Positions 1-8,015 of a stretch of DNA of 40,099 nucleotides are shown here, piece after piece; position 1 is the stretch's first letter, and every line of letters begins with the position of its first letter. Position numbers and translations under genes: made by a program. This DNA is from Candidatus Bipolaricaulota bacterium (GTDB lineage Bacteria > Bipolaricaulota > Bipolaricaulia > UBA7950 > UBA9294): assembly GCA_026390345.1 (NCBI GenBank), contig JAPLGD010000028.1, forward strand, positions 1 to 40,099, given 5' to 3'. Under the pieces are notes generated by a model that saw nothing but the letters and a program-made list of their open reading frames with translations, was not told the origin of the DNA and did not search any database.

Positions 1-1
1 C

Positions 2-199
2 GAGGCCAACAAGCATTGGATCACGACAGCCGAGAAGATGAAGCTGACGAACAACGCGATCTACATGCACTGCCTGCCGGCGGATCGTGACATGGAGGTC
101 ACCGACGACGTCATCGACGGCCCGAACTCCGTGATCATCGAACAGGCGGCGAACCGCCTCCACGGCCAGAAAGGGATGATGGCCTGCATCATGGGCTAG
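2..199 (+). CDS. YgeW/ornithine carbamoyltransferase family protein, 3' end only
   Basis: Only the last 65 codons are visible; the gene enters from the left edge. The fragment carries the carbamoyltransferase signature HCLPAD (binding of carbamoyl phosphate and the second substrate) followed by the C-terminal helix [18 protein letters not shown], which packs back on the carbamoyl-phosphate domain in this family. The downstream gene at 676 ends with a closely similar segment (ILDQAENRLHTQKAIL), so the two are paralogues; this copy keeps the canonical HCLP motif and is probably the catalytically competent one. Substrate cannot be told from the fragment. Family assignment is secure; exact enzyme (YgeW-type, ornithine or another acceptor) is inferred from the neighbour. 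Confidence 0.85.
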
Positions 200-205
200 A
201 ACGGG

Positions 206-659
206 AAAGCACACCGCAGAGGACGCAGAGAGACGACCCATGGACCTGGGGAAAAGCCTGAATCAGACCACGGACCCGATCATCGGCGCCGCCGTCCGTG
301 TGCACGCGGCGTTGGGTCCTGGGTTGCTCGAGTCGGCGTACGAAGCATGCCTGGAGTGCGAACTCGCTCAAGCCGGCCTGCGCGTGGACCGACAGCTGCC
401 GCTGCCTATTGTGTATCGAGAGGTGAGGCTGGATTGCGGCTACCGCCTCGACCTGTTGGTCGAGCAGAAGGTCGTCGTGGAGGTGAAGTCCGTCCGGGAG
501 ATCGCGCCCATTCGTGAAGCCCAGGTGCTCTCCTACCTGCGCCTGTCCAGGTGCAAGGTTGGACTCCTCCTGAACTTCGATGTCCTGCGACTGAAGGACG
601 GTATTCGACGGTTCGTCAACGAGTTCCCCGATCCTCTGCGCTCTCTGCGGTTCGTGCTG
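206..659. repeat. Imperfect inverted-repeat pair bounding the GxxExxY gene
   Basis: The left arm (about 206-232) and the reverse complement of the right arm (about 633-659) share the pattern GCAC-n-ACCGCAGAG-nn-CGCAGAG, differing mainly by a 2-base gap and two swapped bases. They lie immediately outside the core of the 240-689 gene, giving a unit of roughly 450 bp. No target-site duplication is evident. The arms look like cassette ends; no transposase is present. Confidence 0.6.
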
Positions 660-689
660 TTGCAAAGGAGGTTTCATGAGTTGGTTTGA
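240..689 (+). CDS. GxxExxY family protein (PD-(D/E)XK-like fold)
   Basis: A 149-residue member of the GxxExxY family, named after its signature, here G28-LL-E31-SA-Y34. Residues D71, E81 and K83 (motif RLDLLVEQKVVVEVKS) match a PD-(D/E)XK nuclease-type core. The biological role of the family is unknown; nuclease activity is inferred from fold only. The recognisable domain ends near residue 129 (RRFVNEF); the last 20 residues are translated from the flanking inverted repeat and from the ribosome binding site of the next gene, so the true end is an accident of where a stop falls. It overlaps the start of the next gene by 14 nt and sits between two paralogous carbamoyltransferase genes, suggesting insertion into a tandem pair. 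No clear Shine-Dalgarno precedes the ATG. Confidence 0.8.
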   Translation: MDLGKSLNQTTDPIIGAAVRVHAALGPGLLESAYEACLECELAQAGLRVDRQLPLPIVYREVRLDCGYRLDLLVEQKVVVEVKSVREIAPIREAQVLSYLRLSRCKVGLLLNFDVLRLKDGIRRFVNEFPDPLRSLRFVLLQRRFHELV

Positions 690-1578
690 TCTCGCGGGAC
701 GGGACCTCATCAGCGAGCTTGATTGGACGAAGGAAGAATACGACGTCGCGATGAAGGTCACGGACCAGTTGAAGGGCGCGTACTACAGTCGCACCCCACA
801 CATGCGGCTCTCGCTCGAGGACAAGCCCGGTGCGGGGGAGACGGTGAAGGACACCGCCGAGGCGATGGAGCGGTACTGCGACGGGATCGGCATCCGCTTG
901 CTCGACGACGCGGTCGAGCACTACGGGCAGGGCGACCTTGTGATGCAGAAGTTCGCCGAGCACTGCCGCGTGCCGATCATCAACATGGCGTCGGACATCA
1001 ACCACCCGTGCCAGTCGCTGACCGACATCTATACGATGCACGAGAAGCTCGACGGAGCCGTCAAAGGGAAGAAGATCGTGATCATGTGGGCCTGGTCGCC
1101 GTGGATTCGCGGCTGGTGTTCGGTGCAGGGAACGGCGCTCATCTCGTCCTTGTACGGCATGAACGTCGTCGTGGCCAACCCACCCGAGTATGACCTTGAC
1201 CCGAAGGTCATGCAGGATTGCCGCGACCTCGCGGCGGCGTCCGGCGGCTCGTTCGAGATCTCCCACAACCTCGACAAGGCCCTCGACGGGGCAGCCGTCG
1301 TCTTCCCGAGGAACTGGTTCACCAAGGACCGGTACGAGATCGGCAAGGAGAAGGAAGCCGAGATCGCGAAGAAGTATGTGAGCTGGAAGTACTCGACGGA
1401 GCGCCAGAAGAAGCTTGGCGCACCGGGACACCTCCTGCAGTGCATGCCCGTCGACCGCGGCAACGAGGCGGACGCCGAGGTGTGCGACAACAAGCTGTCG
1501 TGGATCCTTGACCAGGCGGAGAACCGACTGCACACGCAGAAGGCCATCCTCACCCTCACGATGGGAGGTCGCCTCTAG
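676..1578 (+). CDS. ygeW: Divergent knotted carbamoyltransferase (YgeW family)
   Basis: A 300-residue aspartate/ornithine carbamoyltransferase-fold protein. The N-terminal helix, HPCQ (110-113), the segment GKKIVIMWAWSPW and the ASGGSF stretch match E. coli YgeW, a knotted carbamoyltransferase of unknown substrate encoded in a purine-catabolism cluster with xanthine dehydrogenase genes. Two catalytic features are damaged: the carbamoyl-phosphate loop STRTR is missing, with a deletion of roughly 35 residues leaving only PHMRL at 41-45, and HCLP has become QCMP (255-258). HPCQ is retained. The upstream paralogue keeps HCLP, so this copy may be a non-catalytic partner or have a new function. Start ATG 676 follows a perfect AAAGGAGG (664-671). 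It ends 2 nt before the molybdenum hydroxylase gene and is almost certainly cotranscribed with it. Confidence 0.85.
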   Translation: MSWFDLAGRDLISELDWTKEEYDVAMKVTDQLKGAYYSRTPHMRLSLEDKPGAGETVKDTAEAMERYCDGIGIRLLDDAVEHYGQGDLVMQKFAEHCRVPIINMASDINHPCQSLTDIYTMHEKLDGAVKGKKIVIMWAWSPWIRGWCSVQGTALISSLYGMNVVVANPPEYDLDPKVMQDCRDLAAASGGSFEISHNLDKALDGAAVVFPRNWFTKDRYEIGKEKEAEIAKKYVSWKYSTERQKKLGAPGHLLQCMPVDRGNEADAEVCDNKLSWILDQAENRLHTQKAILTLTMGGRL

Positions 1579-1580
1579 GG

Positions 1581-3848
1581 ATGGAGAAGCGGACGACGCT
1601 GATCGGCGCGAGCGTTCCTCGACCGGACGCGGTCGACAAGGTCCGGGGCGAGGCGAGGTACGTCGACGACCTCGCCTTCCCCGGCATGCTCCACGTCGCC
1701 GTCGTTCGCAGCCCCCACCCGCACGCCAAGGTCCTCTCGATCGACGCTTCCAAAGCGCTCGGCGAGCCGGACGTCGTCTGCGTCGTCACCCACCGAGACG
1801 TCCCCGGCGCAAACGTCGTCCACGTGATCTACGACGATCAACCGGCGCTCGCGGACGGCGTCGTTCGCTACATCGGCGAGCCGGTGGCCCTCGTCGGCGC
1901 GGTGTCGCGCCGTGCTGCCCGAAAGGCGACGCTCGAGGTGCGCGTCGAGTACGAGGCACTCCCGGCGGTCACCGACACGCGGCGGGCTCTCGAGTCGGGC
2001 GCCCCCGTCATCTGCGTCCCCGCGGCCGCTGAGGGCGGCGGCAACGTCTTCAACAGGATGGTCCTCGTCAAAGGCGACGTCGACACCGGGTTCGGCCAAG
2101 CGGACGTCGTTGTCGAGGGGGAATACGAGACCGGATACCAGGAGCACGCGTACCTCGAGCCCCAGGGAGCGATCGCCGTCCCCGACGAGGCCGGATCGAT
2201 GGCGGTCTACGCATCGATGCAATGCCCGTTCTACGTACAGGGTGCGGTCGCCAAGGCCCTCGGCCTTCCGCTTGCCAAGGTCCGCGTGGTCCAGACAACG
2301 ACCGGGGGCGCGTTCGGCGGCAAGGAGGACGTTCCGTCACAGATCGCCACTCTGGCGGCCCTCGTCGCGTGGACGGCGCGCCGGCCGGCGAAGCTCGTCC
2401 TCGATCGCGGCGAGGACGTGCTCACGACGAGCAAGCGACACCCGTCTCGTGTTCACTATCGAACGGGCGCGAAGGCCGACGGCACGATCACGGCCATTGA
2501 CGTCGACGTCGTCCTCGACGCCGGCGCCTACCAGACCCTCTCCTCCGCCGTCCTCTGGCGAAGCCTGGTGACGGCGGCCGGACCGTACCGAGTTCCGAAC
2601 GTGCACGTCGTCGCACGCTCCGTCGCCACGAACACCGTGCCGAACGGAGCGTTTCGCGGGTTCGGGAGCCCCCAGGTCATCTTCCCCCACGAGTCGCAGA
2701 TGGACCGGATCGCAGAGCGCCTCGGCCTCGATCGCGCCGAGGTGCGGCGGCGCAACGTCCTCCGCCCCGGCGACCGGACCTCGACCGATCACCGGATCGA
2801 AGAGAGCGTGGGGATCGCGGAGACGCTCGACCGCGCCGTGGTGCTCGCTGATTGGGCGGAGCGACTCTCCCGCGTCGAGGCGTTCAACAAGACGCACGCG
2901 GATCGCCACCGGGGTTTGGGGATCTCCTGCGTCCTCTACGGCGTCGGACTAGGCGGGAAGGCGCCGTCGCTCGACAAGGCCGGAGCCACGATGAAGCTCG
3001 AGGCCGATGGCTCGGTGACGGTGGCCGTCGGAACGGTGGAGATGGGTCAGGGCCTCTCCACGGCGATCCTTCAGGTCGCCTCCGAGGCCCTCGGAATCCC
3101 CATGGAGCGCGTCCACCTCGCTCCGATGGACACATCGCGAGTCCCGGACGGCGGTCCGACCGTGGCGTCACGCGGGACGATGATGGCTGCACTCGCCGTG
3201 CTCGACGCGGCGCGCAAGCTTCGCGAGCGGGTGGTCGCCGTCGCCCGCGAGGTCGGAATCCCCGACGCCGCAGCCGCCGAGCGCTGGAGCGAGATCGCGC
3301 GGGCCTTCTGGACGCGCAACGTCGACCCCGCTGTCGAGGGTTGGGCGAAGACGGAGCCCGTGAGCTGGGACCCGACGACCGGACTCGGCGACGCGTACCC
3401 GGTCTACGCGTTCGCGACGCATGTCGCCGAGGTCGAGGTGGACCTCGCTACGGGGGAAGCCCATGTCGTCGACTTCGCCGCGGCCCACGATTCCGGCACG
3501 ATCCTCAACCGTGCGCTGGCCGCGGGGCAGGTCGAGGGCGGGATCGCCCAGGGTCTCGGGTTCGCGCTGTCGGAGTCAATCCCGCAGAAGGAGGGTCGCC
3601 TCGTCGTCAACGGCCTAACGACGTACCGGCTGCCGACGATTCGCGACGTTCCGCTCAACGCCCGCGTCGACTTCGTCGAGGCGGCGTTTCCTGCCGGGCC
3701 GTTCGGAATGAAGGGGATCGGCGAGGTGCCGCTCATGGCGGCCCACGCCGCGGTTGCCCGGGCCGTGGCCCACGCGATGGGCCGCGATCCGGCCCGCTAC
3801 CCGCTCGATCCCCCGTACGTGCGAGAGCTGCTGAGCGCGTCAGCCTAG
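1581..3848 (+). CDS. Xanthine dehydrogenase-family molybdenum-cofactor subunit
   Basis: The 755-residue large subunit of a molybdenum hydroxylase (xanthine dehydrogenase/aldehyde oxidase superfamily). An alpha/beta hammerhead domain (about 17-125) is followed by the molybdopterin-binding domains. Visible motifs are GGAFGGKED (near 242), FRGFGSPQ (near 357), EMGQG (near 485) and KGIGE (711-715), whose Glu is the base that activates the metal-bound hydroxyl. The AFRGFG loop is xanthine-dehydrogenase-like, not the Cys-bearing loop of CO dehydrogenase. No FAD or 2Fe-2S subunit lies downstream, so partners must be upstream of the window or elsewhere. The carbamoyltransferases just upstream recall the E. 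coli ygeW-xdh cluster, making a purine or related N-heterocycle the likely substrate (inference). A GGGAGG lies 13 nt before the ATG. Confidence 0.9.
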   Translation: MEKRTTLIGASVPRPDAVDKVRGEARYVDDLAFPGMLHVAVVRSPHPHAKVLSIDASKALGEPDVVCVVTHRDVPGANVVHVIYDDQPALADGVVRYIGEPVALVGAVSRRAARKATLEVRVEYEALPAVTDTRRALESGAPVICVPAAAEGGGNVFNRMVLVKGDVDTGFGQADVVVEGEYETGYQEHAYLEPQGAIAVPDEAGSMAVYASMQCPFYVQGAVAKALGLPLAKVRVVQTTTGGAFGGKEDVPSQIATLAALVAWTARRPAKLVLDRGEDVLTTSKRHPSRVHYRTGAKADGTITAIDVDVVLDAGAYQTLSSAVLWRSLVTAAGPYRVPNVHVVARSVATNTVPNGAFRGFGSPQVIFPHESQMDRIAERLGLDRAEVRRRNVLRPGDRTSTDHRIEESVGIAETLDRAVVLADWAERLSRVEAFNKTHADRHRGLGISCVLYGVGLGGKAPSLDKAGATMKLEADGSVTVAVGTVEMGQGLSTAILQVASEALGIPMERVHLAPMDTSRVPDGGPTVASRGTMMAALAVLDAARKLRERVVAVAREVGIPDAAAAERWSEIARAFWTRNVDPAVEGWAKTEPVSWDPTTGLGDAYPVYAFATHVAEVEVDLATGEAHVVDFAAAHDSGTILNRALAAGQVEGGIAQGLGFALSESIPQKEGRLVVNGLTTYRLPTIRDVPLNARVDFVEAAFPAGPFGMKGIGEVPLMAAHAAVARAVAHAMGRDPARYPLDPPYVRELLSASA

Positions 3849-6956: not shown

Positions 6957-8015
6957 CTATCGATCCCATCGCACCGCCTCGTTCGCCGGCTCGACGAAGA
7001 GCATCCGGCCCGCCTCCGTCTGGAGCGTGCTCTTCACCGTCGCCTTGATCGTGCGTCCGATGTGACGTCGCCCGTTCTCGACCACGATCATCGTACCGTC
7101 GTCGAGATAGCCCACGCCCTGGTTGATCTCCGCGCCCCGATCGATGACTTCGACGTCGATCGGCTCGCCCGGCACGAAGCGCGGCCTTACCGCGTTCGCA
7201 AGCTCGTTCACGTTGAGGATCCCAATCCCTTCCACTTGCGCCACCCGGTTCAGGTTGTAGTCCGTCGTGACGAGGACGGCGTTCTCCTCGTGAGCCAGAC
7301 GGATGAGCTTCCGGTCGACCTCCGCGATCGTCGGGTAGTCCCGGCGGACGACCCGGATGTTGACAGCGTCGTTCTCCATCAGGCCTCGAAGGATCTCGAG
7401 GCCTCTTCGCCCCTTCCGTCGGCGAAGCGCGTCCGAAGAGTCCGCGACGTTCTGCAGCTCCGCCAGGACGAACTCGGGAATCAGAATCTCGCCTTCGAGG
7501 AACCCCGTGGAGGCCAGGTCGCCGATGCGTCCGTCGATGATGACGCTCGTGTCGATCACCTTCGCGCGCCCCTCGAGCCGTTTCGGGGACCGCGGCGCCT
7601 CCGCGCTTTCTGCGCCCGCAAGCCGCAGTAGAGCGCACGGAAGCGAGAGGCCTACGCCCATCCCCGCAAGGGCGCCACCGGCGAGGAGGGTCCCCTGGGC
7701 AATCCGCACACCGACGGACGGCGGAAGAAGGAACCCGAGCGCCGCGCAGAAGACCGCTCCGAAAAGGGCGCCCGCAAGGCCGACAACCAGCGCGTTCACG
7801 ACCTTCACGCCACGCCCCTCTTGCAGGGCCGGACGTATGAGCCTTCTCCAGGCAACGCAGGCCAGGCCTGCGAAGACCGCTCCCCCCAGCGCGCCGAAGA
7901 ACGCACTCGAGGTGGACGCCGACCACCCTCCGACGGGTGGAAAGATCCGATAGGAATACGAGACCGCTCCCCCCAGAACCAGGAGGACGGCAACGAAGAC
8001 TCCAGGGATGAGCAT
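6957..8015 (-). CDS. Membrane-anchored PIN-TRAM domain protein (YacL-like)
   Basis: A 352-residue protein. Residues 1-140 contain about four membrane helices; a PIN ribonuclease-like domain follows (about 147-275, with the acidic residues of KVIDTSVIIDGR and VTTDYNLNRVA); residues about 285-345 form a TRAM domain (GYLDDGTMIVVENG, then TVKSTLQTEAGRMLF). This is the architecture of B. subtilis YacL, whose substrate is not established; RNA or nucleotide binding is inferred from the domains. ATG 8015 is preceded by GAGGTGA at good spacing and is preferred to an upstream ATG at 8039. First gene of the leftward operon with the TolB-like lipoprotein and ispD, driven by the promoter at 8060-8088. Confidence 0.88.
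   Translation of the reverse strand: MLIPGVFVAVLLVLGGAVSYSYRIFPPVGGWSASTSSAFFGALGGAVFAGLACVAWRRLIRPALQEGRGVKVVNALVVGLAGALFGAVFCAALGFLLPPSVGVRIAQGTLLAGGALAGMGVGLSLPCALLRLAGAESAEAPRSPKRLEGRAKVIDTSVIIDGRIGDLASTGFLEGEILIPEFVLAELQNVADSSDALRRRKGRRGLEILRGLMENDAVNIRVVRRDYPTIAEVDRKLIRLAHEENAVLVTTDYNLNRVAQVEGIGILNVNELANAVRPRFVPGEPIDVEVIDRGAEINQGVGYLDDGTMIVVENGRRHIGRTIKATVKSTLQTEAGRMLFVEPANEAVRWDR

Follow-up and report, generated by a model that had tools for sequence, protein, structure and literature searches.

The REPIN/RAYT system is defined by a Y1 HUH transposase and comprises one or a few gene-bearing units beside many short palindromic repeat pairs; the repeat is lineage specific and a clear target duplication is absent (PMC3116915). 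Insertion sequences with their MITEs have terminal inverted repeats, deletion derivatives dispersed in trans, and decayed copies. Rpn (YhgA-like transposase_31) proteins are PD-(D/E)XK nucleases, for which we know of no terminal arrays or miniatures. They form a separate Pfam family (PF04754) and, in the available portion of the source, are linked as nucleases to RecA-independent DNA mobility (PMC5350276). The intervening sequence (IVS) of Coxiella 23S rRNA, an element of 428 nt whose ends are inverted repeats and which carries a single small ORF, has long been suspected of mobility (PMC4990558). Geobacter multicopy nucleotide sequences are abundant intergenic palindromes with short direct repeats, and a gene family tied to them was not found in the searchable portion of their description (PMC2996986). 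The two papers found to name the GxxExxY family (TIGR04256/PF13366) give it neither a function nor a linked DNA element (PMC8934634, PMC12085832).

The element described here lies near the start of a 40,099-nucleotide contig (JAPLGD010000028.1; herein the window, meaning the whole stretch of DNA analyzed) from a Candidatus Bipolaricaulota MAG of 1.98 Mb in 119 contigs (G000). Its build is that of the 23S IVS, with inverted ends around one small ORF: arms of the form ACCGCAGAG-n2-CGCAGAG at 213-230 and 634-651 enclose the core of a GxxExxY gene. It also shares abundant palindromes and short direct repeats with the Geobacter sequences. The features of the locus are as follows.

2..199, + strand: upstream carbamoyltransferase, 3' part; a host gene outside the element, with its 5' part beyond the contig end.
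200..212, no strand: left junction; a host intergenic remnant outside the element, judged from the hairpin-only sites of G011 and G025 and from empty sites.
213..230, + strand: left arm core ACCGCAGAGGACGCAGAG, two units of period 9; outside the core, the likeness to the right arm is looser.
240..689, + strand: ORF of 149 aa for the predicted GxxExxY PD-(D/E)XK nuclease; residues 10-126 match TIGR04256.
634..651, - strand: right arm core, the inverted copy ACCGCAGAGAGCGCAGAG, translated in frame within the protein C terminus.
652..675, no strand: right junction with the Shine-Dalgarno sequence of the downstream gene (AAAGGAGG); aligns to G011, G025, and G019.
676..1578, + strand: downstream carbamoyltransferase paralog; a host gene; the GxxExxY ORF runs 14 nt into its start.

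Each arm is 18 nt long; the two are complementary at 16 of 18 positions (ACCGCAGAGGACGCAGAG and CTCTGCGCTCTCTGCGGT) and are spaced 403 nt apart. Profile searches place both neighbors of the GxxExxY gene in the OTCace family of carbamoyltransferases. The last ∼20 codons of the ORF consist of the right arm followed by the Shine-Dalgarno sequence of the next gene, and the protein C terminus from about PLRSLRF is translated right arm. A first interpretation made from the letters alone (the sequence-only reading) had proposed inverted repeats bracketing the GxxExxY core between carbamoyltransferase paralogs, with the last 20 residues being translated repeat and ribosome binding site; the arm positions, the profile matches, and the comparisons below bear this out. 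It had also stated that no transposase is encoded, which agrees with PF13366/TIGR04256 being the sole family match of the ORF between the arms. An Rfam search of window positions 1-1700 gave no match, and the genome holds one GxxExxY gene. Directly after the carbamoyltransferase genes, a large ORF (1581-3848) resembles, by eye, a xanthine dehydrogenase-type molybdopterin subunit; the cassette may therefore sit in a purine-catabolism operon. Farther along the window, a PIN-domain match (7239-7559, - strand) lies inside an open frame of 367 codons.

Against the window's own sequence, the inverted repeat stands out only moderately: its score is equaled or beaten at 0.4% of 3,000 equally spaced places, a figure that speaks for a fortuitous repeat around an ordinary acquired gene. 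GxxExxY loci were collected by profile search of relatives and a scan of GTDB representatives, and arms were counted as matched when the inverted-arm score of a locus against itself was at least 13. By this measure, matching arms flank GxxExxY genes at 37 of the 54 loci (69%), in several phyla, which answers the question raised by the sequence-only reading of whether they do so elsewhere; the background is 5.4% of cross-locus pairings and 0.6% of 1,100 control windows. Own-locus scores sum to 900, compared with 469 ± 20 (maximum 571) in 10,000 permutations. Because of this comparative evidence the doubt about the window repeat is removed, and chance, ruled out by the matched arms at these loci, retains a negligible probability. 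Matched arms were found at none of 29 PIN-domain genes in the same genomes, which rules out generic small-gene cargo.

Armed GxxExxY genes occur in Bacteroidota, Acidobacteriota, Planctomycetota, Kiritimatiellota, Abditibacteriota, Rhodospirillales, Desulfuromonadaceae, and one archaeal MAG. The arm unit varies by lineage (CGCAGAGRN, CACAGAGAC, CRCAAAGRN, CGCCGAGNN, CACGAAGGA, CGCCAAGR, AGGAAGCCA, CAGGATTTA), yet both ends of one element agree, and across phyla arm similarity correlates with protein identity (r = 0.40, p = 0.0005). These observations show that the arms and the GxxExxY gene are one inherited unit. The correlation is also expected if arms and gene simply travel together; that the nuclease recognizes the arms is something we infer.

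The window ORF matches TIGR04256 (E = 5.6e-42, 142.8 bits; curated cut-off 35) and PF13366 (E = 1.6e-40, 138.6 bits; curated cut-off 22), both well above the family thresholds. Residues E31, D71, E81, K83, Q95, and Y99 are invariant in 31 GxxExxY sequences and compose a D...ExK active site of the RecB/Cas4 type with a QxxxY motif (E81-x-K83, Q95-x3-Y99). The AlphaFold2 model has a pLDDT of 90; its nearest folds in Foldseek include Cas4 SSO0001 and lambda-type exonucleases, although the E-values are weak (best 3.4e-3), and sequence searches of the PDB gave no match. Motif and model together predict that the protein of the element is a RecB/Cas4-type PD-(D/E)XK nuclease. Pairwise dN/dS is 0.14-0.22 among the copies at the carbamoyltransferase (OTC) site and 0.02-0.26 over all pairs with estimable dS, values that indicate purifying selection on the nuclease.

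Relatives with an undivided carbamoyltransferase pair help to define both junctions. The two genes lie 15-28 bp apart in G014, G004, G010, G015, G018, G020, G021, and others; a hairpin of ∼27 bp made of two arm cores separates them in G011 and G025, and other hairpins occupy the site in G005, G022, and G007. The gene-bearing cassette is found in G000, G003, G016, and G019, which belong to four genera. Empty, hairpin-only, and filled sites together support the earlier proposal that the unit was inserted as a piece of DNA. The four OTC-site GxxExxY genes form one clade (support 98/89), which rules out repeated independent insertion there; because they do so, the simplest history would be one old insertion of single origin, after which some lineages lost the gene. 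Two further arrangements were seen in this region. In G019 (L042), the left arm and ∼95 bp adjoining it are present in about six tandem copies beside the GxxExxY gene, and in a relative of the same genus (G001:C56:8111-10587) 2.4 kb of other content separates the carbamoyltransferase genes.

The site can be read in another way, in which dispersed hairpins predate the gene-bearing form and owe their spread to something else, and GxxExxY is a homing-type nuclease that cuts hairpins of its own class, so that recombination copies its gene into them through arm homology. Such homing would account for the exact position of the gene between its arms, and for the presence within one genus of both hairpin-only (G011, G025) and gene-bearing (G019) sites. 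The single clade of OTC-site genes weighs against it, since hairpin-only sites can then be deletions, and the miniatures described below place the gene-bearing form first in at least one genus. Overall, we regard homing as unlikely, if the strongest of the rivals considered here.

Movement of the element as a unit is visible in the genus of G015. Over a 449-bp stretch, arm to arm, two G015 copies at unrelated loci (L011 and L036) are 86% alike, and outside it they are unrelated; a third copy is frameshifted and has the same arms. Between two genomes of this genus, the match of L038 to L024 is essentially confined to the element. As in insertion sequences, inverted terminal repeats thus bound the unit. 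Copies decayed by frameshifts or stops occur more widely, as is usual for mobile elements.

In genus g3, short elements of ∼130 bp consist of an arm and the first ∼14 codons of the gene fused to the last ∼14 codons and an arm, the interior reading AATGGA..GAGCTGTCGAATGCGGTGATTGGCTGTG joined to ATGTCACCAAGCTCAAGA..ATCAAGCGCTTTGTCCTTTGA. The 5' gene end is recognizable in seven of eight elements and the 3' end in all eight (p about 0.002 per end against shuffled sequences). Because the fusion is common to the short elements, it suggests a single internal deletion that was later dispersed. With inverted ends, no ORF, and an origin by internal deletion, these are MITEs by definition, and the gene-bearing and short forms of g3 appear from their sequences to be related as autonomous element and MITE. 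A short element in g11 shares ∼45 bp past the arm with a gene-bearing element. These comparisons show that the gene-bearing element is mobile as a unit, with the arms as its limits, and that deletion of the gene yields dispersed ∼130-bp miniatures. The sequence-only reading had left a choice between a nonautonomous cassette and a nuclease that itself acts on the repeats. Of these, the nuclease would fit better, as the gene-bearing form looks parental and the gene-less copies keep gene ends. The g3 miniatures likewise argue against homing, since they hold both deleted ends in a common fusion. Elsewhere the picture is more favorable to it: gene remnants were not found in the short elements of G000, F. 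piscis, and M. psychrotolerans, where only the arms are common with the resident gene. The window's genome has about ten short elements with window-type arms whose interiors are shared neither with one another nor with the gene, which suits old copies.

Unlike insertion sequences, the unit encodes no transposase of the DDE, HUH, serine, or tyrosine kinds. Target sites may be a second difference, and one that counts against transposition: among 78 elements we saw no target-site duplication of at least 5 bp beyond single chance matches. TTAA is present at many Bacteroidota element ends, a 4-bp signal that is palindromic and therefore ambiguous as a duplication.

Arms are also dispersed far beyond the genes. 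Arms of the CACGAAG class number 39, 54, 37, and 23 in four g3 genomes and 0-5 elsewhere, AGGAAGCCA arms are confined to g11, and CGCAGAG arms are found chiefly in g1, g2, g8, g10, and part of f4; reversed-pattern controls are near 0. The GxxExxY genes of these genera mostly bear the dispersed arm class of their genus, with exceptions such as G021 and G027, which additionally hold a gene element of the CGCAGAG type. Flavobacterium and Mucilaginibacter genomes contain 30-100 arms each (reversed-pattern control 0), many as convergent pairs 75-200 bp apart, and of 40 such loci taken there regardless of genes, one contains GxxExxY; that most hairpins are gene-less is again as homing would have it. 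The sequence-only reading had set against itself a repeat that is common but has no link to GxxExxY: the repeat did prove common, but it is linked to these genes. In Mucilaginibacter psychrotolerans, a gene-sized CACAAAG hairpin element (L219:1504-2204) encloses what by eye is an ORF-less remnant resembling a group II intron.

Short inverted pairs that are dispersed, numerous in each genome, and lineage specific in sequence are the hallmark of REPIN/RAYT. The present element departs from that system in encoding a PD-(D/E)XK protein in place of the defining Y1 HUH enzyme, in arms built up from repeats of an 8-10 bp unit, with the gene inside them, and in g3 miniatures that are internal deletions of the gene. 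Several genomes are rich in arms with no GxxExxY gene detected (G029, with 112 copies; G018; G024; G004; G011), so a strict per-genome rule of arms if and only if gene fails; these genomes are incomplete MAGs or may have undergone gene loss. They are the chief difficulty for a nuclease-driven mechanism. Three G029 loci (L247, L250, L252), in a genome where the gene was not detected, carry CGCAGAG arrays every ∼75-90 bp in a single orientation. Because the arrays sampled in G029 often have one orientation, they may represent a different, decayed state.

Arm-rich genomes without a detected gene would also be expected if an unrelated host transposase, such as a Y1/RAYT enzyme, mobilized the arms in trans with GxxExxY as selfish or regulatory cargo. 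A nuclease alone would be an unusual mobilizer, and 11 of the 13 genomes examined for one gave a Y1 transposase match. However, no Y1 (PF01797) match was found in G000 or G004, which are 91-92% complete and have 13 and 39 exact arm matches, respectively. Arms accompany GxxExxY and four-helix-bundle genes specifically rather than small genes generally, arm class tracks GxxExxY clade, and the catalytic residues are retained. Mobilization as a passenger is therefore improbable, slightly more so than homing.

The four-helix-bundle genes connect the element to the rRNA IVSs. Genes for the 23S IVS protein (TIGR02436) have matched inverted short tandem arrays at 17 of 25 loci. Those in relatives (L106-L132) and at G000:C104:3904-4227 have unit classes GTTCGTAGA, GATTGAGT, GTCCGCG, and others, mostly unlike those of GxxExxY, and the GTTCGTNG arms of such genes are likewise dispersed, in g1, g6, and g8. 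The window element is not itself an IVS: it encodes a predicted nuclease and not S23p, it adjoins protein genes rather than rRNA, and GxxExxY arm units are mostly of another class.

The RecB/Cas4-like fold and the long vertical retention at the OTC site would also suit a housekeeping role, in which GxxExxY would limit or repair hairpin-forming repeats produced when replication slips and switches template. This leaves unexplained the position of the gene inside the arms, the arm-to-arm homology at unrelated loci, and the dispersed gene-derived miniatures, and we consider it very improbable.

The best reading, and in our judgment the probable one, is a mobile element operating in the manner of REPIN/RAYT, with a Cas4/RecB-type nuclease replacing the Y1 HUH transposase. 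In its gene-bearing form, of ∼420-500 bp, a GxxExxY nuclease gene lies between inverted arrays of an 8-10 bp tandem unit. The nuclease would recognize the arms, or the hairpin or cruciform they form, both in cis and in trans, and would cut there, starting the copying or re-insertion of gene-bearing and gene-less forms, which host replication and repair would complete. The window copy looks like an old, settled resident from one ancestral insertion; purifying selection maintains it, and at the 3' end its reading frame runs on through the arm into the next gene. The part given here to the nuclease in mobility is inferred from these comparisons; to our knowledge, no single nuclease transposes DNA unaided.

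Text searches, which covered neither subscription journals nor preprints, returned no paper linking GxxExxY genes to these repeats, and the link is probably new. The evidence points to a widespread, apparently undescribed kind of bacterial mobile DNA. A broader proposition, which we hold to be evenly balanced, is that GxxExxY elements are a distinct, phylum-spanning autonomous class whose sole enzyme is a Cas4/RecB-like PD-(D/E)XK nuclease acting on short tandem arrays, that they gave rise to the abundant repeats of the CACAGAG/CGCAGAG/CACGAAG type in environmental genomes, and that the rRNA IVS/four-helix-bundle elements are a second branch of like architecture. A large family of uncharacterized small nucleases would thereby gain a context that bears on its function, very common dispersed repeats of environmental genomes would gain a source, and the long-debated rRNA intervening sequences would take their place in a broader class of small inverted-array elements. 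The finding also suggests that DNA mobility may rest on a nuclease alone together with host repair.
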